A stretch of DNA of 49,975 nt. Source: Defluviitaleaceae bacterium. GTDB taxonomy: Bacteria; Bacillota; Clostridia; Lachnospirales; UBA5962. Position numbers and translations under genes: made by a program. Under the pieces are notes generated by a model. The model was not told the DNA's origin. It made no database searches and was given only the letters and a program-made list of their open reading frames with translations. Of this stretch, positions 720 to 12,838 are shown in pieces. Position 1 is the stretch's first letter. Each line of letters starts with the position of its first letter. The stretch is from positions 1-49,975 of the forward strand of contig WRGD01000148.1 of NCBI GenBank assembly GCA_009787355.1. The letters are read 5' to 3'.

Positions 720-2351
720 TTATTGTAAAAATCCAACATAAATTAGCATAATACCAAAGAAAATTCCCATTGCTATACAAATGCCTCTAAAACCAAGGTC
801 AATTTGTTTAACTCTTTTAAGAAGTTTACTTTTTTTGATATAATATTTGTAAATTAGTATACCCACAACAAGACTTATAAAGAAAATAATAATTTTTTCC
901 AAATATCCTGCTGGATTTACACTAAGTTCAGTATTAAACATAAATAAAATAAACTGTTGACCAAAAACCCCCCCCAAGAAACATAAAGAACCAAGTAAAA
1001 GTATAGGTATTTGTTGTGCTATATCAACTTTTTTGGTTTCTATATTGATATTTGGTTTACCCCAAAGCATAGTAGAAAACTTTACGAAACTAATAATAGT
1101 ACCTAGAGACATAAATATAAGAATATATTGCATTATACCTTGCTGACCACTCATAATAAAGTATTTTGATATACTACCATTAAAAATCGGTGTACCGGTT
1201 ATACCAAATATCGCTAGTAATGTTGCTGTCCCAACTAAAGGCATAGATTTAAAAACACCTTTTATATCATATATAGTTCTTGTTCCATAAGCATAAGATA
1301 TAATACCAGTTGCAAGAAACAATGTTGATTTAAATATTGCATGATTAACCATATGATACAAAGAACCAATGTAACTATATGGACCACCTATGTTAAAACC
1401 AGTAAATATTAAACCGATTTGTGAGATAGTATGATACGCAAGTACAAGCTTAGCATCAGACTGAGCAAGTGCCATTATAAAACCAACTATTGCAGTAATA
1501 ATTCCAATTGCTAAGAAGAACTCTGGAACTGCTACAACTTCAAATGTATATTGAAATCTTAAAAATAAATAAACTGCACTTTTTATATGAAGACCGCTAA
1601 GTATTGCAGAAACTGACGAAGGTGCACCTGGTGTACCATGGGCTTTTGGAAGCCATGAAAACATAGGGACTAACGCAGATTTTAGTACAATGAAAGTCAT
1701 AATTAATACATAGGGCAGTATTATATACTCTCTTTCAATAAACTTGAGTTGTTCATTGGCAATGTACAAACTTAATGTTCCAGTGTACCTATATAGATAA
1801 CCTGCACCAAGCAAATAAAACTGCATGATTACAACATTTGCCATAAAGTATATAAGACCATCGTACATAGACCTTTTAGCTCTTTCAAAAAGTATAAGAA
1901 CTGTAACGATAAGAGTAGCAACTTCCATAAGAACAAAAATATTAAAAAAGTCGCTTGTTAGGAAAATTCCCATTAAAGCACCCTGCCATATAAACATAAG
2001 CATCCAAAAAAGAGGCTTCTTTTGTTCGTTAAAGCTATATATAACACCTATTAAAAAGAAAAAAGCTGTTAACATAATAAAAACTGCCGAGAGTGTATCA
2101 GCCATAAGAGTAATACCCATTACACTTTCGTAACCACCAATTCGTTCTATAATTCCACTCTCACCTAAAAAACCACCTTTTATTGCCCCTTCATAAACAG
2201 TAAATGCCCTAGCCTGTATAAACATATAGACAGATGCAATAACAAGCCCAAGTTGTGCAATAACTGCGAAAATTCTGACAAGGGTACTTTTATATAAAAG
2301 GTACAGTATTAACCCAACTATAATGGGAACAATTACAAAATAAACTAACAT
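720..2351 (-). CDS. mrpD: Mrp/Mbh-type antiporter subunit D, copy 1
   Basis: This is the proton-translocating subunit of a multisubunit cation/proton antiporter (MrpD/MbhH, related to NuoM/N), with about 14 membrane segments in 543 residues. The residues that carry protons in the family are all present: E143 in the FVLMEV segment, K224 before the P in the TM7 region, H238 in WLPKAH, K257 in the HIKS segment, H333 and H337, K341 in HAIFK, and K396 in NGSISK. It is the last gene of a six-gene minus-strand operon (E, F, G, fusion, C, D) and starts 16 nt after mrpC, with a GAGGT ribosome site. The substrate cation cannot be read from sequence; Na+ is usual for the family. The gene lies before a terminator-rich gap. 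Assignment to the family is firm. Confidence 0.9.
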   Translation of the reverse strand: MLVYFVIVPIIVGLILYLLYKSTLVRIFAVIAQLGLVIASVYMFIQARAFTVYEGAIKGGFLGESGIIERIGGYESVMGITLMADTLSAVFIMLTAFFFLIGVIYSFNEQKKPLFWMLMFIWQGALMGIFLTSDFFNIFVLMEVATLIVTVLILFERAKRSMYDGLIYFMANVVIMQFYLLGAGYLYRYTGTLSLYIANEQLKFIEREYIILPYVLIMTFIVLKSALVPMFSWLPKAHGTPGAPSSVSAILSGLHIKSAVYLFLRFQYTFEVVAVPEFFLAIGIITAIVGFIMALAQSDAKLVLAYHTISQIGLIFTGFNIGGPYSYIGSLYHMVNHAIFKSTLFLATGIISYAYGTRTIYDIKGVFKSMPLVGTATLLAIFGITGTPIFNGSISKYFIMSGQQGIMQYILIFMSLGTIISFVKFSTMLWGKPNINIETKKVDIAQQIPILLLGSLCFLGGVFGQQFILFMFNTELSVNPAGYLEKIIIFFISLVVGILIYKYYIKKSKLLKRVKQIDLGFRGICIAMGIFFGIMLIYVGFLQ

Positions 2352-2367
2352 TTATTTACCTCTTTTT

Positions 2368-2733
2368 TTATCCAGCCATTTGGCGTTTTTTTACAATATC
2401 CCAATCGGTAGTTTTATATTTTCTATAAAGTGTTAAAAACATAATAGTATTTACAGCTGTAACAGAAAGCCCAATAACAATAGCTGTTATCATAAGCCCT
2501 TGTGTCAAAGGATCTCCTATGTTTTCGATTGAATGCCCCTCCATGCTTTGTAAAATCGGAGGCACAATGTTACCGTTAAAACCAATACTTAACCAAAACA
2601 TTACTACTGAAACTTCCATAATAGACATAAAAATTATAGATTTTATCATGTTTCTACTTACTATAATTGCATAGTAACTAAAGAAAAACATAATAATAGA
2701 AACTAATTCAACTATTCCAAATCCGATAGTCAT
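2368..2733 (-). CDS. mrpC: Mrp/Mbh-type antiporter subunit C, copy 1
   Basis: This is a small NuoK-like membrane subunit (MrpC/MbhG), 121 residues with three predicted membrane helices. The Glu of the MEVS segment in helix 2 is the conserved NuoK-type carboxylate. The third helix begins with DPLTQGLMITAIVIG, the usual family signature. The C-terminal tail RKYKTTDWD is shared with copies 2 and 3. It follows the MbhD-MbhE-MrpB fusion gene by 21 nt and has a GGAGA ribosome site. MrpC-type subunits sit next to MrpD in the membrane arm and help form the lateral ion path. Identity is clear from motif, size and position. Confidence 0.9.
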   Translation of the reverse strand: MTIGFGIVELVSIIMFFFSYYAIIVSRNMIKSIIFMSIMEVSVVMFWLSIGFNGNIVPPILQSMEGHSIENIGDPLTQGLMITAIVIGLSVTAVNTIMFLTLYRKYKTTDWDIVKKRQMAG

Positions 2734-2754
2734 TTTTTCATCTCCTTTAATATA

Positions 2755-3714
2755 CTAGTTTCTTTCAATTGCTACATATCTATAGAATAATATAATAAAA
2801 CCACAAGCAACTTTCAATCCTACAAGTGCGTTCATAAATATTAGATATATATTTCGTGTCATTGCTGTGTACTGTTCTGGAAAAAGGTACAAAGTTCCTT
2901 GAAAAACAGTAACAGCAGCAACAACAACAATTAAAATAAAAACTAGCTCTTCTAACTTATTAATTTTCTTCATATCTAGGTCGTAAACATCATAAATTAG
3001 GAAACGACATATAAAAAAGCTGGCGATTGCAAGACCACCTTGAAAACCACCACCAGCAGTTAAAAACCCATTAGCAATTACGTATATACCAAATAAAATA
3101 GCCATTGGGGCAAGTGCTCTAAGTAACAAGTTTGCAATGTTCGACTTTTCAATTTCAGAACGCTCACCTTCTTTTATTTGAATTTTATCAGTATATGACA
3201 TATGTGTAATTGCAACAACGGCAATAACTAACATAAGTGCTTCAAAAAGTGTATCGTATAATCTATATCCAAGATATATACTAGTAACAGCATTTTCTCC
3301 ACCAATATCAGACATAAACCTAGTAATGTATAGTTCTTTTAGATAAGAGTTTGTTGTTTCTGGTGGTAAAAAATATATAAACATACTACCTAGTATTAGT
3401 ACAAAAATACAAGGTATAATAAATCTTTTTATTTTGTTTTCTTTTTTTATCTCTTCTTCTTCAGCTTTAATTTGTATAATATCTCTGAGTTTAAAGAATT
3501 TTTCAAAGCAAACTATAAAGACAATTGTAGAAAAAGCACCAATTGCAGCTTCTGCCATAGCAACATCTGGAGAACCCAGAAGGAAAAAAGCAAAAGCACC
3601 AACTAATGAAAAAATAAAGAACCAAATAATCATGCTTAGAACTTTTTTTTCTATTAGTACCAAAACACCAGAAAGCATCCAAAGAAACAACATTATGTAT
3701 AAAATATTTATCAT
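2755..3714 (-). CDS. MbhD-MbhE-MrpB triple-domain antiporter subunit, copy 1
   Basis: This 319-residue membrane protein joins three units that are separate in archaeal Mbh. The first is an MbhD-like domain (about 1-75) with LGSPDVAMAEA at 46-56. The second is an MbhE-like helix pair (about 95-172) with GYRLYDTLFEA near 149-159, the counterpart of the RGFDTLGE motif in the MrpA tail. The third is an MrpB domain (about 190-319) with GGGFQGG at 221-227. A charged Glu/Lys linker lies at about 80-96. In Mrp systems the first two domains form the C-terminus of MrpA; here they come without the NuoL-like body of MrpA. The 3' end of mrpG overlaps its start by 4 bp, so the two are translationally coupled. 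All three copies in this window have the same fusion. Confidence 0.88.
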   Translation of the reverse strand: MINILYIMLFLWMLSGVLVLIEKKVLSMIIWFFIFSLVGAFAFFLLGSPDVAMAEAAIGAFSTIVFIVCFEKFFKLRDIIQIKAEEEEIKKENKIKRFIIPCIFVLILGSMFIYFLPPETTNSYLKELYITRFMSDIGGENAVTSIYLGYRLYDTLFEALMLVIAVVAITHMSYTDKIQIKEGERSEIEKSNIANLLLRALAPMAILFGIYVIANGFLTAGGGFQGGLAIASFFICRFLIYDVYDLDMKKINKLEELVFILIVVVAAVTVFQGTLYLFPEQYTAMTRNIYLIFMNALVGLKVACGFIILFYRYVAIERN

Positions 3715-4034
3715 TTTATCACCTCTTGTTTGTCTTTATTTTTGCTGTGATTTTCTGGTCTTAGTCCACTTAAATACGCACCTTTAGATAAAAAGTGAGA
3801 CATAAGAGGATTTAGAACAACAATAATTAGTATTAATAGTATTGATTTAGCAGAGAAAAAACTAAATCCATGTCTAATAGCGATACCTAATATAAAAACC
3901 ATTACACCAACGGTATCTATTTTTGTTGAAACAAGTAGTCTTGGGTAAAAGTTTTTAAATTTAAATAGTCCCAAAAGACCTACAGCCATTAAAATAAGGG
4001 CTATTCCCATAACTACATAACTTAATATAATCAT
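3711..4034 (-). CDS. mrpG: Mrp/Mbh-type antiporter subunit G, copy 1
   Basis: MrpG/MbhC is a small three-helix subunit; this one has 107 residues. The signature is GLLGLFKFKNFYPRLLVS followed by KIDTVG, matching the family pattern G-x-R/K-F-x-D-x-Y-x-R-L and the K-x-D-T-x-G turn. The first helix is very hydrophobic and the C-terminal tail is polar. Its start overlaps mrpF by 4 bp and its end overlaps the fusion gene by 4 bp, so F, G and fusion are tightly coupled. It is an accessory membrane subunit needed for assembly or activity in known Mrp complexes. Confidence 0.88.
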   Translation of the reverse strand: MIILSYVVMGIALILMAVGLLGLFKFKNFYPRLLVSTKIDTVGVMVFILGIAIRHGFSFFSAKSILLILIIVVLNPLMSHFLSKGAYLSGLRPENHSKNKDKQEVIK

Positions 4035-4294
4035 TCTTCATTCCCTTCTTTTACTCTTTTACTTAAAAATAGTATTATAAAAATTTCTCCAAGTATACCA
4101 AACAAGGCGTAAATTAATGCTAAATCTAGCAAATAACCAACGTTCATTATAGAAGCAGCTACTACTATAAGAATAACAATTTTTGAAGAAAAAATACTAA
4201 AACCTAAAAATCTGTCCCATATTGTTGGACCTTTTATAATTCTTACGACTACTGTCAAAAGATATATAAGAAGTACAGATACTATAATATTCAT
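4031..4294 (-). CDS. mrpF: Mrp/Mbh-type antiporter subunit F, copy 1
   Basis: MrpF/MbhB, 87 residues and three helices. The motif R-I-I-K-G-P-T-I-W-D-R-F-L-G-F is the family hallmark (R-x-x-x-G-P-x-x-x-D-R). The third helix, LLDLALIYALFGILGE, carries the conserved Asp and Glu. A GGAGAG ribosome site lies rather far from the ATG (about 17 nt). It follows mrpE by 24 nt and overlaps mrpG by 4 bp. Confidence 0.88.
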   Translation of the reverse strand: MNIIVSVLLIYLLTVVVRIIKGPTIWDRFLGFSIFSSKIVILIVVAASIMNVGYLLDLALIYALFGILGEIFIILFLSKRVKEGNEE

Positions 4295-4318
4295 AATTTA
4301 ATATGCTAACTCTCCTTT

Positions 4319-4804
4319 CTATTTTACAGCAACAATAAGTTTATCTTCCATATCTCCCAAAAGAGCTACTTTTAAATTTTCCATATCTTCTGGGTCTGGT
4401 TCATCTCTTTTTCTTAACCATAAAACATTAATTTTGTCATCTTCTGTTATCACATATAAAGAACCCGGAGTTAAAGTTATGCTTGCTTCTAACATAGCTC
4501 TTAATGGCTTTACCTCTATATCTGTAGGAATTGCTACAATATCAGTACGCTCCTTAGAAAAAACTATTGTTAAAACATAAAAAGCACTTTTGAAAATTTC
4601 ACCTATTAAGTAAATAGGGTAAAAAATAAGTTTTGTAAAATTTATTTCGTCTATTTCTTTAAGTGGCAAAAATTTTTTTGTAAACAAAACAGATATAATG
4701 CTTGCAACAACACCAGATATTACAAAAATAGGTGATAATGTTTCAACTAATATAATCCAAACTAATGTAAGAAATGTAACAATTATAAGTTTTCGAAGTA
4801 TCAT
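4319..4804 (-). CDS. mrpE: Mrp/Mbh-type antiporter subunit E, copy 1
   Basis: First gene of the copy-1 operon, 161 residues. MrpE/MbhA has two or three N-terminal membrane helices and a small cytoplasmic domain. The diagnostic I-T-L-T-P-G-S segment, with LWLRKRDEPDPE after it, is present. I place the start at the ATG at 4804, because GAGG lies 7 nt upstream of it. The TTG at 4810 would sit only 2 nt from that site. The start also matches that of copy 3. A good promoter lies about 70 nt upstream at 4873-4901. Confidence 0.88.
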   Translation of the reverse strand: MILRKLIIVTFLTLVWIILVETLSPIFVISGVVASIISVLFTKKFLPLKEIDEINFTKLIFYPIYLIGEIFKSAFYVLTIVFSKERTDIVAIPTDIEVKPLRAMLEASITLTPGSLYVITEDDKINVLWLRKRDEPDPEDMENLKVALLGDMEDKLIVAVK

Positions 4805-4872
4805 TCTCAATCCTCCTCTCCTTCTCTGATTAAAAAATTTCTATAAACTAATTTTAGAAATTTTCTTTTTTC

Positions 4873-4901
4873 ATTTTAATCGTTATTTCTAAAAAAATCA
4901 A
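4873..4901 (-). promoter_or_regulatory. Promoter of the copy-1 antiporter operon
   Basis: On the minus strand TTGATT (4901-4896), a 17-nt spacer and TAAAAT (4878-4873) form a sigma-A type promoter about 70 nt upstream of mrpE. With the terminator at 5030-5064, it indicates that copy 1 can be transcribed separately from copy 2. Confidence 0.45.
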
Positions 4902-5029
4902 CATATTTTTTCAAAATTATCTCTTATATAAAATTATTATTAACATGATTTTTTATTTTATTGTAGTATACTATTTTTATATTTTTCACTTATGCAATTC
5001 CTTTTAGAAAATTTACTATGTTAAATTTC

Positions 5030-5064
5030 AAAAAATGCTTAAAAATTAAATTTATAAGCATTTT
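5030..5064 (-). terminator. Terminator after copy-2 antiporter operon
   Basis: AAAATGCTTA (5032-5041) pairs perfectly with TAAGCATTTT (5055-5064) around a 13-nt loop. On the minus strand the stem runs into a T-run. It lies 26 nt past the stop of copy-2 mrpD. Confidence 0.6.
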
Positions 5065-5090
5065 CAAAAAACTCTATTTAATAACAATTT

Positions 5091-6677
5091 CTAAAATCCT
5101 ACTATAAGTAATATAAAAGCAAAAAACAAACCAACAGAAAGTATGATTCCTCTTATACCCATATCGTATGTTTGTAATTTTTTTAAAATAGGTGTATCTT
5201 TTTTTATCAATTTATTTATAAAAAAGGCTATCACAATACTAATTACAAATATTACACCATGCTGTATATTTTCGGCTATATTTATAGATTTATAAGCATT
5301 AAAGAAAATCCCTATTGCCTCTCTAGAAAAAATACCACCTAAAATACATAATAATCCAAGAGGTATAATAGAAAATTCTTGTATTTCCATTTTTAACGTT
5401 TCAGATTCTGACTCTTCTATTTTTGATTTTCCAAAAAATATAGAAGAAAATTTAAAAAATATTACCATACTACCCAAACTTATAATGTACATAATAATAG
5501 TACCTAAAATATCCATATCTCTTATTATTAATTGTTTAGAAACACTTCCATTTAAAAAAGGTGTTGCAAAAATACTAAGAAATGCAAATATTAAAACATA
5601 GCTAGTAATGGGTGCAGATTTTAATACACCTTGTATTTTGTCTAAATCTTTGGTTTGATACTTTTCTATTATTATACCGGTTCCTAAAAATAAGGCAGCC
5701 ATGGCAATTGCATTGTTTATCATATGATATGTTGTACCAATTCTACTATATTCATCTCCTGTATTTAAACCAAAAATAATTAATCCGAATTGAACTACAG
5801 CTAAATAGGATAACATATGCCTTATATTTTTTTGACTTATTGCCATAAAAATCCCTACTATAGAAGTAGAAGCACCTACAAAAGCAAAAATAGCATTGTT
5901 TGCAAAATCTCCAAAAACATAATGCATTCTAATAAACAAATAAATACCACTTGTCATCTGTACAGTAGACATAACGGCTAAAACAGTAGGTGGAGCTCCT
6001 GCTGTTGCAAGTGCTTTTGGTACCCATGTCGTCATTGGTATTAATGCACATTTTAATGCTGCAAATGTCATTATTAGAGCATATGGTAAAACTAGAAGAC
6101 TAGGGTCTATATGAGGTATACGATAGGTTGCTTCGTATATGTCTAGTGTACCTGTAAGTCTGTATAAATATCCAACACCTAAAAGATAAAATTGAACAGA
6201 TATAACATTTATTATTAGATAATATAAGCCATCGTATAAAGAACGGTGTTTTCTATTATACATTATTAGTATTGTGCTTATTATTGTAGAAACTTCCATA
6301 AGTACAAATCTGTTGAAAAAATCACCTGTCATGAATATCCCTATCAAAGAGCCTTCCCATATAAACATAAGTAGCCAAAAAAGTTTACTCTTTTTTTCAG
6401 CAAAGTTGTATATAGTAATTGTTAAAAATATAAGTGTTGTTAGTAAAATAAGTATTGATGACAAGCCATCAACATTTAGCCTTATGCCTGTAACACTGTA
6501 ATAATTCCCTACAGTTTCTGATACTGTATATGTTCTTGCTTGTAAAAATAAATTAAAAGAAGCTATTATAAGAGCTAATTGTGCTAATATTGCTATAATT
6601 TTAGCTGCTTTATCATTTGTAAATAAATACATAAAAACAGCTAAAAGAATTGGCGATACTACATATAGTGTAAGCAT
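5091..6677 (-). CDS. mrpD: Mrp/Mbh-type antiporter subunit D, copy 2, with degenerate proton-path residues
   Basis: A 528-residue NuoM/N-like membrane protein, clearly an MrpD by length, order and the retained motifs: E128 in FVLMEV, K209 in LKCALIP, and K381 in NGSVSK. Several residues kept in copies 1 and 3 are changed. The His of WLPKAH is L223 (WVPKAL), the Lys of HIKS is T242 (QMTS), and the His and Lys of NHAIFK are N322 and M326 (NNAIAM). The conserved Thr of AYxT is replaced by Ala in SYLAVVQ. The frame is intact with a good AAGGA ribosome site, so the gene looks expressed rather than decayed. It may conduct differently, use another pathway, or serve as a structural or regulatory subunit. 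It is the last gene of the copy-2 operon, before the terminator at 5030-5064. Confidence 0.85.
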   Translation of the reverse strand: MLTLYVVSPILLAVFMYLFTNDKAAKIIAILAQLALIIASFNLFLQARTYTVSETVGNYYSVTGIRLNVDGLSSILILLTTLIFLTITIYNFAEKKSKLFWLLMFIWEGSLIGIFMTGDFFNRFVLMEVSTIISTILIMYNRKHRSLYDGLYYLIINVISVQFYLLGVGYLYRLTGTLDIYEATYRIPHIDPSLLVLPYALIMTFAALKCALIPMTTWVPKALATAGAPPTVLAVMSTVQMTSGIYLFIRMHYVFGDFANNAIFAFVGASTSIVGIFMAISQKNIRHMLSYLAVVQFGLIIFGLNTGDEYSRIGTTYHMINNAIAMAALFLGTGIIIEKYQTKDLDKIQGVLKSAPITSYVLIFAFLSIFATPFLNGSVSKQLIIRDMDILGTIIMYIISLGSMVIFFKFSSIFFGKSKIEESESETLKMEIQEFSIIPLGLLCILGGIFSREAIGIFFNAYKSINIAENIQHGVIFVISIVIAFFINKLIKKDTPILKKLQTYDMGIRGIILSVGLFFAFILLIVGF

Positions 6678-6684
6678 ATATTTT

Positions 6685-7044
6685 TTATCCTTCTGTTTTT
6701 CTTATTCTTGCTAAATCCCAGTCTGTTGTTTTGTATTTTCTGTACAATGTAATAAACATTATTGTTTTTATAGCTGTTACAGCAATACCAATAACAACAG
6801 CAGTAAGCATTAAAGCTTGTGTAACAGGGTCAGCTGTGTATATATGTTCGTAATCTGCCATTGTATATAAAATAGGAGGATTAAGTCTTTCCCTAAAGCC
6901 AATACTAAGCCAAAATGTAATAACCGATACTTCCATAAGAGAGCTGAAAATAATTGTTCTTATTATGTTTCTGTTTGTAACAAGTGCATAAAAAGCAAGA
7001 AAAAATACTATTATTGAAACAAGTTCTACATTACTCATATCCAT
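6685..7044 (-). CDS. mrpC: Mrp/Mbh-type antiporter subunit C, copy 2
   Basis: NuoK-like subunit of 119 residues, three helices, with the MEVS Glu in helix 2, the DPVTQALMLTAVVIG signature at the start of helix 3, and the RKYKTTDWD tail seen in copies 1 and 3. The ATG at 7044 overlaps the stop codon of the upstream fusion gene. A second ATG two codons in (7038) has better spacing from AAAGGA and could be used instead. mrpD begins 7 nt after its stop. Confidence 0.88.
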   Translation of the reverse strand: MDMSNVELVSIIVFFLAFYALVTNRNIIRTIIFSSLMEVSVITFWLSIGFRERLNPPILYTMADYEHIYTADPVTQALMLTAVVIGIAVTAIKTIMFITLYRKYKTTDWDLARIRKTEG

Positions 7045-7994
7045 TAATTCCTTTCAATTGCAACGTATCTATAAAATAATATAATGAAACCTAGTGCAAC
7101 TTTTATACCTATAAGAGCATTCATTACAAATAAGTATATTTCTTGTGCAAGGGTCATAAATCTATATGGTACTTGTTGAATAAGTCCTGCAAAAATAGTA
7201 AGAGCTGCCATAGCAACTATTATTATAAAAATAAAATCTTCTAGCCTGTTTATCTTTTTTATGGGTAAATCATAAATATCATATATAAAAAATCTGCAAA
7301 CAAAAAAACAAGCTATAGCAAGTCCACCCTGGAAACCTCCACCAGCAGATAAAAAACCATTAGCAATAAGATATACACCAAATATTATTGTTATAGGAGC
7401 AACTATTCGAACCAAGAACAAAGCCATACCAGATGTTTCTAACTCGCTATGTTTTCCATCATTTACTTTTGTTATATCAAAATTGGACATATGAACAACA
7501 GCAACTACAGCTATAACAAGAAGCAGTGCCTCGAAAATTGTATCGTAAACTCTATATCCAAGGTATATAGCTGTTACAGCATTTTCACCACCTATATCTA
7601 TAGTAAATCTATCTAAAATAAGATTTTTTAAATAGTCGTTTTGTTCTACTGGAATTGCAAAATTAATAAAAAGTACTAAAATACCAATAGAAATAATAGC
7701 TGGTAAAATATATCTTTTAAATTTGTTTTCTTTTTCTATCTCCTTTTCATCTTTAAGATATTTCTTCATATCTCTAAGATTGAAAAATTTCTCAAAACCA
7801 ATTACAAATATTATTGTAACAAAAGCACTAGCTGTTGCCTCTGCCATCGCAAGGTCTGGTGAACCTAGTAGAAGGTATATTATAGAAGCAATTATAGAAG
7901 ATAAAAAAAGCCAAAGTATCATTCGTACTATTTTCTTTTCAAATATTACAAAAACAGAACAAACAAGCCATAAAATAACTATTAATGTTGTCAA
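7044..7994 (-). CDS. MbhD-MbhE-MrpB triple-domain antiporter subunit, copy 2
   Basis: 316 residues with the same three-part layout as copies 1 and 3. MbhD-like LGSPDLAMAEA is at about 43-53, the MbhE-like GYRVYDTIFEA near 147-157, and the MrpB GGGFQGG at 218-224. The Asp and Glu of the first two motifs, the likely ion-path carboxylates, are kept. The start is a TTG at 7994, preceded by AAAGGTGAT. Unlike the D subunit of this copy, this protein shows no loss of key residues. It starts 3 nt after mrpG and ends on the mrpC start codon. Confidence 0.87.
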   Translation of the reverse strand: MTTLIVILWLVCSVFVIFEKKIVRMILWLFLSSIIASIIYLLLGSPDLAMAEATASAFVTIIFVIGFEKFFNLRDMKKYLKDEKEIEKENKFKRYILPAIISIGILVLFINFAIPVEQNDYLKNLILDRFTIDIGGENAVTAIYLGYRVYDTIFEALLLVIAVVAVVHMSNFDITKVNDGKHSELETSGMALFLVRIVAPITIIFGVYLIANGFLSAGGGFQGGLAIACFFVCRFFIYDIYDLPIKKINRLEDFIFIIIVAMAALTIFAGLIQQVPYRFMTLAQEIYLFVMNALIGIKVALGFIILFYRYVAIERN

Positions 7995-7997
7995 TTC

Positions 7998-8309
7998 TTA
8001 ATCACCTTTCTTATTATCTTCATTTTCTAATAAATGACCACTAACATAAGCAGTTCTAAGTAAAATATGTGCTGTAAGAGGGTTTAAAATTAAAATTAGA
8101 GCTAATATTAAAAGTGTTTTTGCAGAAAAAAAACTAAATCCGTGCCTTATAATAACACCAATTAAAATAGTTATAGCTCCTACAGTATCTACTTTCGAAG
8201 ATACTAGAAGTCTTCTATAAAAGTCTTTAAATTTGTATATACCAAATACACCAATAATTAAAAAAAATATTCCAATAGATATTATTACATTACTTATTAT
8301 TTCTATCAT
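7998..8309 (-). CDS. mrpG: Mrp/Mbh-type antiporter subunit G, copy 2
   Basis: 103 residues, three helices. The family signature is present as GVFGIYKFKDFYRRLLVS with KVDTVG after it; here the Asp before F-Y matches the common form better than copy 1 does. The segment I-R-H-G-F-S-F-F-S-A-K is shared with copy 1. The start overlaps mrpF by 4 bp. Confidence 0.87.
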   Translation of the reverse strand: MIEIISNVIISIGIFFLIIGVFGIYKFKDFYRRLLVSSKVDTVGAITILIGVIIRHGFSFFSAKTLLILALILILNPLTAHILLRTAYVSGHLLENEDNKKGD

Positions 8310-8569
8310 TCTTCTTTACCTCCTCTTACCCTATCTGCTAAAAACATAATAAGGAAAATTTCTCCTAAAAATCCAAATAATGCGTATATAATAGCCAAAT
8401 CTAACAAAAATGTTGTACTTTCTATAGATGCAAATATTACAATAAATATAATAAATTTGTGAGATATAAGATTAAATGCCAAAACTCTATCCCAAATTGT
8501 AGGTCCTTTTATAACTCTAAAAATTACAAGTAAAATAAGAACTACTAAAATCCACAAAAAATAATTCAA
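8306..8569 (-). CDS. mrpF: Mrp/Mbh-type antiporter subunit F, copy 2 (first gene; no mrpE)
   Basis: 87 residues, three helices, with R-V-I-K-G-P-T-I-W-D-R-V-L-A-F and a C-terminal helix ending in LFGFLGE. The start is a TTG at 8569; GGAG lies 10 nt upstream, and an in-frame stop just before it rules out a longer form. In copies 1 and 3 mrpE precedes mrpF, but here only 110 bp with a long hairpin separate it from copy-3 mrpD. Copy 2 therefore has no E subunit of its own and would have to borrow one or work without it. Confidence 0.86.
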   Translation of the reverse strand: MNYFLWILVVLILLVIFRVIKGPTIWDRVLAFNLISHKFIIFIVIFASIESTTFLLDLAIIYALFGFLGEIFLIMFLADRVRGGKEE

Positions 8570-8596
8570 AAATCAATATCTCCTTTCTCTAAAAAT

Positions 8597-8670
8597 AAAC
8601 ATTTACTAACATACGTAATCAAACTAAATATGCTAACAAATGTACTAAAAACGTATATTAGTAAATGTTT
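8597..8670. repeat. 19-bp inverted repeat (hairpin) between copies 3 and 2
   Basis: Arms 8597-8615 and 8652-8670 are complementary over 19 bp with one mismatch, around a 36-nt loop. On the minus strand the hairpin follows the stop of copy-3 mrpD and precedes the ribosome site of copy-2 mrpF. Only five T follow it, so it may be a leaky terminator, an attenuator or a processing and stability hairpin within a longer transcript. No clear promoter is visible in the remaining bases. Confidence 0.6.
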
Positions 8671-8679
8671 TAATATAAA

Positions 8680-10308
8680 TTAATTATAAAAGCCAACTGC
8701 AATCAATATAAAAGCAAAAAATGCTACCATAGAAAAACACATTCCACGAAATCCCATTTCGGATGTTCTTATCCATTTCATTGCAGGCCCTTCTTTTGTA
8801 AGAAAAGCTTTGTATATAACATATCCAGCCATAAGACTAACAAAAAATATTATAGCTTTTTCTGTATATCCTGCTATGTTTACATAAACAGAATATCCAA
8901 ATAAAAAGTTTATTGTCTGAATTCCTAAAATACCCATCAAAAAACACATAACACCAAGTAATAATATAACACCATGACTCATAATATCTAATGGTTTTTT
9001 TCTGATATTAGGTTTTTTACCAAAAAATATCGCACTAAATTTAATACATATAATTATTGTACCTAAGTTTACAATATTTAATATTATATTTGTGTCCCAA
9101 CCCGTACCAGACATTAAAAAATATTTAGAAATACTACCATTAAATAGCGGTGTTCCAATAATACCAAGTAATGCTAGTATCATCGCTATAGATATAGCAG
9201 GCATTTCAAAAAACACACCTCGTATTTGAGTAGATTCCCGAGTATGGTAATAATGAGATATAATACCAGCCCCAAGAAAAAGACATGCTTTAAAAATAGC
9301 ATGGTTTGCAATATGGAATAACCCTCCAACATAGTTGTAACCATCAATATCTCCAATAGAAAGCCCAACCAATATAAGGCCAACTTGTGCAATTGTACTA
9401 TACGCAAGCATTAGTTTTATATCTGTTTGAGAAACAGCAAATATAACACCCGCCAAAGCTGTTATAATGCCAAGTACAAGAAAAATTTGGCTTCCATCTA
9501 TACCACCATTTTGAAAAACATCGGAAAAACGTAAGAATAGATAAAGTCCACTCTTTATATGCAGTCCAGAAAGTATAGCCGAAACACTACTAGGAGCACC
9601 TTTAGAACCATGTGCCTTTGGTAGCCAAGAATACATTGGCATAAGAGCACATTTTAAGCCTACAAATGTCATTATTAGAGCATATGGGAGTATTAAATCA
9701 GATGTATATAAATAACGTACTCTCTCTGATACAAGACTAATATCTAGTGTACCAGTCATTCTGTAGAGATAACCTACTCCAAAAACAAAAAAGTTTACAA
9801 TTATTGTACTAATAACAAGATATATCATACCATCGTACATATTTCTATTTTTTCTTTCATACATAATAAGAACTGTAACTACAATGGTTGCAATTTCTGT
9901 AAGTACAAATATATTAAAAAAATCTCCAGAGAGGAAGATGCCAATTAAAGATGCTTGCCACAAAAATTTTAGTAGCCAGAAAAGTGGCGAATGATTTGCA
10001 GAAAAACTATAAAAAGTGGCTATTAAAAATATAAAAGCTGTGAGCATTATAAACATAGATGAGAGCATATCCGCAACAAGTACAATACCCATAAAACCAT
10101 AATAACCACCAACTGGAGAACTTATAACATTATTTGTATGTGAAACATATAAAAAATTCTGCAAAGTAAAATAAAATAATGTAGATTGTGCAAGTAAAGC
10201 TACTATTCTTGTAAAACGATTAGCACCACTTAGATACAAAATAACAGCAATAATAACTGGTGAAACAACGAAATAGAAAAGTAAATTTTCGATATATTGA
10301 TTTGTCAT
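8680..10308 (-). CDS. mrpD: Mrp/Mbh-type antiporter subunit D, copy 3
   Basis: 542 residues, about 14 membrane helices, related to NuoM/N. The proton-path set is complete: E138 in FVLTEI, K219 in LKCALMP, H233 in WLPKAH, K252 in HIKS, the His/Lys of NHAIFK, and the Lys of NGSISK. It resembles copy 1 much more than copy 2 in these segments. The start has AAAGGA at proper spacing and lies 2 nt after mrpC. It ends 9 nt before the 19-bp hairpin that separates it from copy 2. Confidence 0.9.
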   Translation of the reverse strand: MTNQYIENLLFYFVVSPVIIAVILYLSGANRFTRIVALLAQSTLFYFTLQNFLYVSHTNNVISSPVGGYYGFMGIVLVADMLSSMFIMLTAFIFLIATFYSFSANHSPLFWLLKFLWQASLIGIFLSGDFFNIFVLTEIATIVVTVLIMYERKNRNMYDGMIYLVISTIIVNFFVFGVGYLYRMTGTLDISLVSERVRYLYTSDLILPYALIMTFVGLKCALMPMYSWLPKAHGSKGAPSSVSAILSGLHIKSGLYLFLRFSDVFQNGGIDGSQIFLVLGIITALAGVIFAVSQTDIKLMLAYSTIAQVGLILVGLSIGDIDGYNYVGGLFHIANHAIFKACLFLGAGIISHYYHTRESTQIRGVFFEMPAISIAMILALLGIIGTPLFNGSISKYFLMSGTGWDTNIILNIVNLGTIIICIKFSAIFFGKKPNIRKKPLDIMSHGVILLLGVMCFLMGILGIQTINFLFGYSVYVNIAGYTEKAIIFFVSLMAGYVIYKAFLTKEGPAMKWIRTSEMGFRGMCFSMVAFFAFILIAVGFYN

Positions 10309-10310
10309 TT

Positions 10311-10694
10311 TTATCCTTTCTGTATAGCTTCTTTTGAAACTTCTTTACTTTTTATTTTCGCAATATCCCAATCTGTTGTTTTAAATTTTCTGTATAAAGT
10401 TATAAACATTATTGTTTTTATTGCTGTTATAGATATACCTATAACTATTGCTGTTATCATAAGGGCTTGTGGCAATGGGTCTGATATATAAACTTGATAA
10501 TTATCTACTTCAAACATGGAGGCTACAATAGGTGCTACCATTCCCTCGGTAAAACCTATACTTAACCAAAACATAATAATGCCAACTTCCATCATACTTG
10601 CAAATACTATTGTTTTTACAATATTTCTATTTGTAAGCAAACCGTATAAACCTAAAAAAAATACTATTATTGAAATTAATTCGATTGAATTCAT
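10311..10694 (-). CDS. mrpC: Mrp/Mbh-type antiporter subunit C, copy 3
   Basis: NuoK-like subunit of 127 residues. Helix 2 has the MEVG Glu and helix 3 starts with DPLPQALMITAIVIG, which is closest of the three to the usual family sequence. The ATG at 10694 is chosen because AAAGGAGG sits just upstream. The frame extends to an ATG at 10763, but that would run into the fusion gene and adds 23 residues with no match to the other copies. The C-terminal tail is longer and charged (KSKEVSKEAIQKG). Confidence 0.88.
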   Translation of the reverse strand: MNSIELISIIVFFLGLYGLLTNRNIVKTIVFASMMEVGIIMFWLSIGFTEGMVAPIVASMFEVDNYQVYISDPLPQALMITAIVIGISITAIKTIMFITLYRKFKTTDWDIAKIKSKEVSKEAIQKG

Positions 10695-10707
10695 TTTTTT
10701 GCCTCCT

Positions 10708-11658
10708 TTAGTTCCTTTCGATAGCAACATATCGGTATAGAAGTATGGTAAAACCACAGGCAACTTTAATACCTATTAAAAGGTTCATAATAAATAAATA
10801 AATGTTCTGTGCTATAGGCAAATAATTTGGTGGTATTTCTCCAAAGAAACCGTGAAAAACCATAAGAGATGCCATTATAACAACAGCAACAAATATCGTA
10901 TCTTCTAATTTATTTACTTTTTTTATAGGAATATCATAAATATCAAATATTAAAAATCTACAAATAAAGAAACTTGCTACAGCAAGACCACCTTGAAAAC
11001 CACCACCAGCTGTTATAGCTCCATTTGCAATTAAATATATTCCAAATAAAACTGTAATCGGTGCTACTATTCTTACTGTAAATAAGGATATAGCATTATT
11101 TTTCACTTCACTCTGTTTTCCATCTTTTTTATACACACCATCAAAATGGCTAAGATGTACAACAGCAACAACAGCAATAAGTAAAAGTAGTGCTTCAAAA
11201 ATAGTATCATAAACACGGTATCCCAAATATATAGCACCTACAACATTTTGACCACCAACATCTGTACTAGCTCTAAGTATATACAAATTTTTTAGATACG
11301 TATCCTGAGGAGCTTGTGGCAAGAAATTCATAAACAAAGCAAAAGTACAGAGAACTACAAAAGCAGGTAATATAATTTTTTTAAATATATTTTCTCTTGT
11401 TTTAGAATTCTCTTCTTCTATAAAATTTTGCAAATTTTTAATACCAAAAAAATTTTCAAAACAAACAATAAATATTATTGTAACAAATGCAGATGCTGTT
11501 GCTTCTGCCATTGCTACGTCTGGGCTTCCCAAAAACAAAAAACCTAAACTAGCAATTATAGAAGATAGAAATAACCATAAAATCATACTAAGTAATTTCT
11601 TTTGAAACAACACAAAAATATTACAAAAAAGCCAAAAAGACATAATAGTTGTTGTCAT
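10708..11658 (-). CDS. MbhD-MbhE-MrpB triple-domain antiporter subunit, copy 3
   Basis: 316 residues with the same fusion as in the other two copies: LGSPDVAMAEA near 43-53, GYRVYDTIFEA near 147-157 and the MrpB motif AGGGFQGG near 217-224. One difference is GGQNVVG in place of GGENAVT before the MbhE-like helix, so a conserved Glu is Gln here. A charged linker lies at about 78-92. The start overlaps mrpG by 4 bp and the stop lies 13 nt before mrpC. Confidence 0.87.
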   Translation of the reverse strand: MTTTIMSFWLFCNIFVLFQKKLLSMILWLFLSSIIASLGFLFLGSPDVAMAEATASAFVTIIFIVCFENFFGIKNLQNFIEEENSKTRENIFKKIILPAFVVLCTFALFMNFLPQAPQDTYLKNLYILRASTDVGGQNVVGAIYLGYRVYDTIFEALLLLIAVVAVVHLSHFDGVYKKDGKQSEVKNNAISLFTVRIVAPITVLFGIYLIANGAITAGGGFQGGLAVASFFICRFLIFDIYDIPIKKVNKLEDTIFVAVVIMASLMVFHGFFGEIPPNYLPIAQNIYLFIMNLLIGIKVACGFTILLYRYVAIERN

Positions 11659-11981
11659 TTTGCCACCTCTTTATTTCCTTTAGCTTTTTTGTTTTTATGA
11701 CCAGAAATAACAGCATATCGTAAAAGTGTATGTGATTTTAATGGGTTTATAATTAGTATTAAAATCATTAATAAAATAGTTTTTGCAGAAAACCAACTTA
11801 TACCATGACGTATTGCAAGCCCCGATAATATTGTTATAGCTCCAACTGTATCTATTTTACTAGTAGATAAAATACGTGAAAAAAAATCTTTAAATTTAAA
11901 AATAGCAATAACACCAATTAAAATAAAAAACGTCCCAACAACTATAAAAATATTGCTAATTATGTGTAATAAATTTTCCAT
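11655..11981 (-). CDS. mrpG: Mrp/Mbh-type antiporter subunit G, copy 3
   Basis: 108 residues, three helices, with GVIAIFKFKDFFSRILS and KIDTVG. The common Y-x-R-L is F-S-R-I here, a mild divergence. The tail is strongly basic (GHKNKKAKGNKEVAK). It starts 4 nt after mrpF and overlaps the fusion gene by 4 bp. Confidence 0.86.
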   Translation of the reverse strand: MENLLHIISNIFIVVGTFFILIGVIAIFKFKDFFSRILSTSKIDTVGAITILSGLAIRHGISWFSAKTILLMILILIINPLKSHTLLRYAVISGHKNKKAKGNKEVAK

Positions 11982-11985
11982 TCTA

Positions 11986-12267
11986 TCATCCCCTTTCTTT
12001 CACATTTTTAGAAAGAAAAGTTATTAGAAATATCTCTCCCAAAAATCCGAACAAAGTGTATATAATAGCTAAATCTAATAAATACGCTGTGTTTCTCATA
12101 GATGAAAATATAGCAATAATCAAAACTAATTTAGAAGAAATTATGCTAAATCCTAATACACGATCCCATATGGTAGGACCTTTTATAACACGGATAACAC
12201 AAACTATAGCAAATAGTAATATTACCCACAAAATTATTTCTAATAATGACATATAAAATAATGACAT
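11986..12267 (-). CDS. mrpF: Mrp/Mbh-type antiporter subunit F, copy 3, with duplicated start region
   Basis: 93 residues, three helices, with R-V-I-K-G-P-T-I-W-D-R-V-L-G-F and LFGFLGE near the C-terminus. The 5' end is unusual. A 15-bp unit is repeated in tandem (12242-12273), so the ribosome-site-proximal ATG at 12267 and a second ATG at 12252 lie in identical surroundings and the protein begins MSLFYMSLLE. AGAGG precedes the first ATG by about 6 nt, so I take 12267. If the second is used, the protein has 88 residues, close to copies 1 and 2. Confidence 0.86.
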   Translation of the reverse strand: MSLFYMSLLEIILWVILLFAIVCVIRVIKGPTIWDRVLGFSIISSKLVLIIAIFSSMRNTAYLLDLAIIYTLFGFLGEIFLITFLSKNVKERG

Positions 12268-12273
12268 ATAAAA
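12242..12273. repeat. 15-bp tandem duplication over the mrpF start codon
   Basis: Bases 12242-12258 repeat with a 15-bp period at 12257-12273 without mismatch. The unit contains the start codon on the minus strand and is a multiple of three, so both copies keep the frame. Confidence 0.8.
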
Positions 12274-12337
12274 CCTCTAATGTAAACTTTAAAATATAAA
12301 ATTCAATTTTTTTAATTTTGAAATCTGAAAAAACATA

Positions 12338-12838
12338 TTATTTCTGTGCTTTTATAAGTTCTCTTTGAAGAGGACCTATTAACATTTCATCCAAATTTTC
12401 TATTTCACTTGGGTCTTTATCATTCTTTTTTCTAAGCCATAACAATTTTATATCTTCGCCATCCATTTCCACAAAAATAGTACCAGGAGTAAGAGTTACT
12501 GAATCTAATAGCATAATTTTTAGCATTTCATTTTTAATTTTAGATTTTACAGAAACTATGTCTGCACGACTTCCTTCTTTTGAAAAAACAATAGATATTA
12601 TATAAAAACCTGCAACATATATTTCTTTTATTAAAAAAAATGGATAATGCAAAAGTTTGGAAAAGTTTATATCTTGTATTTCTTTTAAAGGCAATAGTTT
12701 TTTGCAGAATAATAAAACAACTACAGCTGTTATAACACCAGAAATTACAAAAATGGGTGCTACAGATTCCGCCAAAATTACCCACATTATAGTGAATATA
12801 AAAATGATTGTAATATCTTTCTTATTAATGAGTATCAC
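12338..12838 (-). CDS. mrpE: Mrp/Mbh-type antiporter subunit E, copy 3
   Basis: 166 residues with N-terminal membrane helices, then the T-L-T-P-G-T segment typical of MrpE and LWLRKKNDKDPSE near the end, parallel to copy 1. The start is a GTG at 12838. AAAGG lies only a few bases upstream, which is tight spacing. The gene begins 11 nt after the stop of the upstream methyltransferase gene, so copy 3 appears to be read from that gene's promoter or from one inside it. mrpF follows after 70 nt. Confidence 0.86.
   Translation of the reverse strand: MILINKKDITIIFIFTIMWVILAESVAPIFVISGVITAVVVLLFCKKLLPLKEIQDINFSKLLHYPFFLIKEIYVAGFYIISIVFSKEGSRADIVSVKSKIKNEMLKIMLLDSVTLTPGTIFVEMDGEDIKLLWLRKKNDKDPSEIENLDEMLIGPLQRELIKAQK

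Follow-up and report, generated by a model that had tools for sequence, protein, structure and literature searches.

Judged from sequence alignments, the antiporter-like subunit of the middle one of three tandem Mrp/Mbh-type gene modules (copy 2, its D subunit hereafter D2) is without exactly the triad relay that links LysTMH12 to the cytoplasm. The modules lie in a 49,975-nucleotide stretch of a Defluviitaleaceae contig, referred to here as the window. Copy 2 would then be an intact cation module in which the D relay is lost, with cation movement that is weakly coupled, decoupled, or gated and independent of protons; alternatively, it would act in regulation alongside copies 1 and 3. This is the likeliest reading, and we consider its chances to be evenly balanced.

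Three tandem modules and their D subunits

The three modules are encoded on the minus strand, with copies 3, 2 and 1 following one another from high to low coordinates. Profile searches identify the B gene of these modules as a fused MbhD/MbhE and MnhB protein, and the D gene as an antiporter-like subunit of the family PF00361. The features are as follows, with the basis of each call in brackets.

720..4810, minus strand: copy-1 module, E F G B C D (ORFs, profiles, alignment)
720-2351, minus strand: D1, the copy-1 D, full relay kept (alignment)
5091-8569, minus strand: copy-2 module, F G B C D, no E (ORFs)
5091..6677, minus strand: D2, the copy-2 MrpD/MbhH-like subunit, 528 aa, without the Lys-His-Lys relay (ORF, PF00361, alignments, model)
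6685..7044, minus strand: copy-2 MrpC-like subunit (ORF, alignment)
7044..7994, minus strand: copy-2 fused MbhD/MbhE and MnhB subunit, B2 (profiles, alignment)
7998..8309, minus strand: copy-2 MrpG-like subunit (ORF, alignment)
8306..8569, minus strand: copy-2 MrpF-like subunit, PF04066 (profile, alignment)
8680..12838, minus strand: copy-3 module, E F G B C D (ORFs, profiles, alignment)
8680-10308, minus strand: D3, the copy-3 D, full relay kept (alignment)
2755-3714, 7044-7994 and 10708-11658: B genes of the window that have lost a His of the MnhB part (alignment)

The mrpE gene is present in copies 1 and 3 and absent from copy 2 (8570-8679); in B. pseudofirmus, a complex of the remaining subunits still forms without MrpE (PMC5703873). 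A 280-base A+T-rich gap lies 3' of D2 (window 4811-5090) and contains an AT-rich hairpin near 5033-5063 (AAATGCTT...AAGCATTT), for which the terminator scan made no call. Copy 1 may be on a separate transcript from copy 2. The plasmid search returned no match.

D2 matches PF00361 with 116.9 bits (cut-off 21.5). It has the GluTMH5/LysTMH7 pair (E128 and K209) and the LysTMH12 (K381) of MrpD/MbhH-type subunits, and T242, N322 and M326 stand where the relay residues of TMH8 and TMH11 would be. Because the Pfam definition of PF00361 makes no use of the relay, the homology membership of D2 stands; proton conduction by D2 does not follow from this membership. As regards the 14-TM fold with broken TMH7 and TMH12 of such subunits, the structural model of D2 is of moderate confidence (pLDDT 67, pTM 0.74), with breaks near residues 217-229 and 371-378, and its best PDB matches are MrpD structures (6z16 and 7qru; TM-score, relative to query length, about 0.73-0.76). 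Sequence and predicted fold together class D2 as an MrpD/MbhH-type PF00361 subunit.

The draft genome (2.25 Mb, 152 contigs, 96% complete) contains three PF00361 genes, D1, D2 and D3, all of them D-type, and therefore one antiporter-like subunit per module. The PF00361 search of the genome found no MrpA N-terminal antiporter-like part, so that a complete MrpA-G set is lacking. Clusters of the Mrp/Mbh type without this part are common in the order. Neither PF00146 (NuoH-like) nor PF00346 (NuoD-like) has a match in the genome (controls positive in 11 of 14), and the genome therefore has no complex-I-type redox arm and does not encode a respiratory complex of the Mbh/Mbs type.

The missing Lys-His-Lys relay

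The D2 reading frame starts with ATG and has no internal stops, and its product is 45% identical to each of D1 and D3. At five positions of the three-way alignment where D1 and D3 both carry the residues H, H, K, H and K, the D2 residues are L223, Q240, T242, N322 and M326; E128, H318, K209 and K381 are retained in D2. When D2 is aligned to the solved MrpDs (7qru_D and 6z16_D), T242 corresponds to Lys250, N322 to His333/Asp333 and M326 to Lys337, and the retained E128, K209 and K381 correspond to E137, K219 and K392. The Phe gate (F330) is retained, as are D70 and R250, which correspond in the alignment to 7qru to Asp75 and Arg258 of B. pseudofirmus MrpD. The codons, located by alignments, are listed below.

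5535..5537, minus strand: K381 (AAA), LysTMH12, kept
5700..5702, minus strand: M326 (ATG), the TMH11 Lys position (Lys337)
5712..5714, minus strand: N322 (AAT), the TMH11 His position (His333)
5952..5954, minus strand: T242 (ACA), the LysTMH8 position (Lys250 of B. pseudofirmus MrpD)
6051..6053, minus strand: K209 (AAA), LysTMH7, kept
6294..6296, minus strand: E128 (GAA), GluTMH5, kept
6309..6311, minus strand: R123 (AGA), a new arginine 5 residues before GluTMH5

These alignments agree with the earlier note, which had reported from the sequence alone that copy 2 lacks residues present in copies 1 and 3 at functional sites, and that E128, K209, K381 and an intact frame are kept. A register shift was rejected as the cause, as the alignment is gap-free around each site with the sole exception of a 2-column gap in the 250s, and equivalent residues are not found at shifted positions. 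Of the four lost proton-path residues that the note had named, T242, N322 and M326 are those of the triad, while position 223 drops out because it varies in relatives.

In MrpD, Lys250, His333 and Lys337 form a Lys-His-Lys triad that is joined by water to Lys392 (PMC9568556), and the same link between LysTMH12 and LysTMH8 is described in PMC7419157. The E137A and K219A mutants of MrpD keep assembly and lose antiport, and in the D75A and R258A mutants the complex is lost (PMC5703873). Current models place the binding of Na+ or K+ between the Glu of an MrpA-C/MbhD-like subunit, MrpC and GluTMH5 of MrpD (PMC7419157), and protons travel through LysTMH12 and the triad to a cytoplasmic exit (PMC7419157; PMC9568556 is more cautious on MrpD). 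Applied to copy 2, these models suggest that the complex would still assemble, that Na+ or K+ would still be bound at the site formed by MrpC, the MbhD-like subunit and the MrpD Glu, and that proton hopping between LysTMH12 and LysTMH8 would no longer be possible in D2. The usual alternative entry for protons would also be missing, as the genome has no MrpA-N; and because the three Ds are its only antiporter-like subunits, D2 would have no neighbour of that kind from which to borrow a standard proton path. Cation movement would then be weakly coupled, or proton-independent and gated; otherwise copy 2 may have a regulatory role beside copies 1 and 3.

A consideration against decoupling comes from HycC of E. 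coli, in which H2 production was not reduced when the equivalent residues of TMH8 and TMH11 were mutated to alanine (PMC9474812); by analogy, some members may be able to do without the relay. Copy 2 could also still be a proton antiporter in which Thr242 and Asn322 with waters, or the alternative proton path through the MbhD/MrpC-like subunits, replace the triad. Being polar, Thr and Asn could hold waters; such an alternative path has been put forward for MBH/MBS, where it is under debate (PMC7684303, PMC7419157); and HycC, which lacks the TMH7 Lys, takes a different route (PMC9474812). Furthermore, at least two other groups with the TMH11 His and Lys in place have Asn or Thr for the TMH8 Lys alone. 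However, M326 is hydrophobic, all three relay positions have changed together, and H287 and R123 are the only new titratable residues near TMH8 or TMH11. We regard such a substitute route as quite unlikely.

Conservation, constraint and history of the loss

The survey of the triad covered 79 rows of Mrp/Mbh-type D subunits, of which 76 come from outside the window, and 8 rows from other classes. Only D2 and one other protein lack the full triad. This protein is the single D of a genome of the same GTDB family (G004), and the full loss is thus found in 1 of 84 D homologues from outside the window. Relatives have H, R, N, Q, K, A or D at position 223, which follows WLPKA, and H, Q, Y or F at position 240; as both sites vary across the family, H223 and H240 were rejected as conserved path residues. 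The groups with a changed TMH8 Lys are of two kinds. One is a D clade of four loci (L017, L018, L019 and L020) with Asn at this position, in which the TMH11 His and Lys and LysTMH12 are kept. In the other, the second D of a tandem D-D pair (L117 469-2076 in G040 and L119 7756-9366 in G122) has Thr for the TMH8 Lys, has lost a conserved Trp at 218 and keeps the TMH11 His and Lys, and the first D keeps all of them. A limited search of the open-licence literature found no published report of an MrpD without the triad.

Against a background set of 68 homologues, 53 columns are at least 97% conserved, 9 of them charged, and no more than 9 charged columns attain 95-97% conservation. D1 departs at 0 of the 53 columns, D3 at 1, D2 at 10 and the G004 D at 11. 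At the charged columns D2 departs at four of nine (K242T, H322N, K326M, K473H) and the G004 D at five of nine (K242T, H322Q, K326H, K381M, K473N); D1 departs at none, nor does D3, although the D3 branch is also long. The excess at charged over all conserved columns in D2 is borderline (Fisher p about 0.05), and the five departures common to D2 and the G004 D give a hypergeometric p of 0.023; both tests were chosen post hoc and ignore kinship.

Given its own base composition, the D2 frame would be free of stops by chance with P of about 5e-11, and differences from the paralogues are about twice as frequent at third as at second codon positions. The open frame and the codon-position pattern show past constraint on D2, not its present strength. 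As 43 of the 53 near-invariant columns are also retained, D2 was rejected as a pseudogene. No broken orthologue of copy 2 was met, the nearest match elsewhere having 46% identity, and no orthologue close enough for dN/dS was found. An assembly or sequencing artefact is highly improbable: the sequence is from a single metagenome-derived draft genome in 152 contigs, but the changes are isolated and codon-consistent within an open 528-codon frame and a matching pattern occurs in an independent genome.

The partner subunits of copy 2 retain nearly all conserved charged residues. B2 retains the cation-site acids D47, E52, E68, D151, E155 and D242, and the F subunit retains D27, R28 and D57. All conserved charged columns of the copy-2 F, G and B are retained except His214 of B, and at these columns the C subunit has a single Lys-to-Arg change. 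This His lies in the MnhB part of the protein (numbered as in B2) and is kept in most relatives; all three window copies have lost it, with Phe, Phe or Ala in its place, and G004 has Leu. When tip lengths were fitted on the F+G+B+C topology for 36 modules, the F+G+B+C tip of copy 2 (0.50) was the shortest of the three copies and its D tip (1.26) the longest, so that only the D subunit is accelerated. The D/non-D ratio of copy 2 (2.51) is the top value of the 36 modules (median 0.84). This D-only acceleration fits a changed use of the proton half, with selection and relaxation not told apart.

Relaxed constraint after triplication would account for the same rates: copies 1 and 3 would do the work, and D2 would drift while kept as a scaffold for its module. 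Besides having the highest rate ratio, D2 departs at near-invariant columns of which 7 of the 10 are not titratable, D3 is also fast (ratio 1.36) despite an intact relay, and copy 2 lacks mrpE. On the other hand, the open frame of D2, the retention of its Glu/Lys pair, its gate and its assembly residues, and the slow evolution of the copy-2 F, G, B and C subunits speak against drift, as does G004, whose only D carries these losses with no intact copy to cover for it. We therefore find drift possible, and on the unlikely side. The suggestion that several independent losses at functional sites point to selection for a new role goes too far in both its parts. The residues of one broken relay lose their purpose together, so independent losses cannot be claimed, and the top rate ratio fits a relaxed constraint on the proton half equally well. 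What persists is constraint elsewhere in D2 and in its partner subunits, and the same loss set in a second genome.

The G004 D (C218, 9974-11566; L009/L090 in our numbering) is the only PF00361 gene of its genome and sits in a complete E F G B C D cluster, a single module. Like D2, it has T242, L223, A224 and R123 and has lost H322 and K326; unlike D2, it has His at 326, has also lost LysTMH12 (K381M), and belongs to a module placed elsewhere in the F+G+B+C tree. Among 101 D rows, R123 occurs only in D2, the G004 D and one D of the genome G005. The last of these (C14; L005) has Ala at 223, Arg replacing LysTMH12 and an intact triad. A single R123 lineage of the three proteins was rejected (p-AU 0.002).

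In the F+G+B+C tree the three window modules are joined (100/98), copies 2 and 3 are sisters (100/99) and the module of the genome G006 is next to the window group. This tree rejects the G004 module as sister of the copy-2 module (p-AU 3.5e-85). The D trees have long branches; the full-column tree pairs D2 with the G004 D weakly (57/84), and with the trait columns masked this pairing is neither shown nor rejected (p-AU 0.338). One clade of D1, D2, D3 and the G006 D is also not rejected (p-AU 0.082). D2 and the G004 D were thus not accepted as simple orthologues, with the F+G+B+C tree against a pairing of their modules and the D trees undecided. As the G004 module is not sister to copy 2, the losses look independent, and the relay would have been lost twice, provided that the D genes stayed with their modules. 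A bolder generalization, which we think improbable, is that Mrp-type modules shed the MrpD relay at least twice independently, keeping the cation site and the Glu/Lys switch, and so turned from antiporters into gated cation pathways independent of protons, in which a new Arg arose in parallel beside the cation-coupling Glu.

Comparison with known antiporter-like complexes

The mechanism of proton-cation coupling is disputed for Mrp antiporters and, by extension, for complex I: depending on the published model, MrpD is a carrier of protons, a carrier of sodium or mainly a coupling subunit (PMC7419157, PMC9568556, PMC7684303). D2 and the G004 D are natural triple mutants with the cation half and the coupling pair kept, and the contrast between them and the intact tandem sisters D1 and D3 would tell the coupling models apart directly.

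D2 resembles MrpD of the Mrp-type (CPA3) Na+/H+ antiporters (6z16, 7qru) in predicted fold, GluTMH5/LysTMH7, LysTMH12, the Phe gate and the assembly residues; it differs in lacking the Lys250-His333-Lys337 relay, and its module differs in lacking the MrpA N-terminal part. With MbhH of the membrane-bound hydrogenase (6cfw) and the MbhA-H module, copy 2 shares the subunit set and a single antiporter-like subunit, and the MbhD/MbhE/MnhB-type subunit is common to copy 2 and the MbhA-H cation module. In contrast to Mbh, this genome has no hydrogenase or other complex-I-type redox arm and the D2 relay is lost. A precedent for the loss of a key lysine is HycC of E. coli formate hydrogenlyase, in which LysTMH7 is replaced by Leu208 (PMC9474812). 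HycC keeps Lys239, His332 and Lys336 and has lost the TMH7 Lys, and D2 is the reverse.
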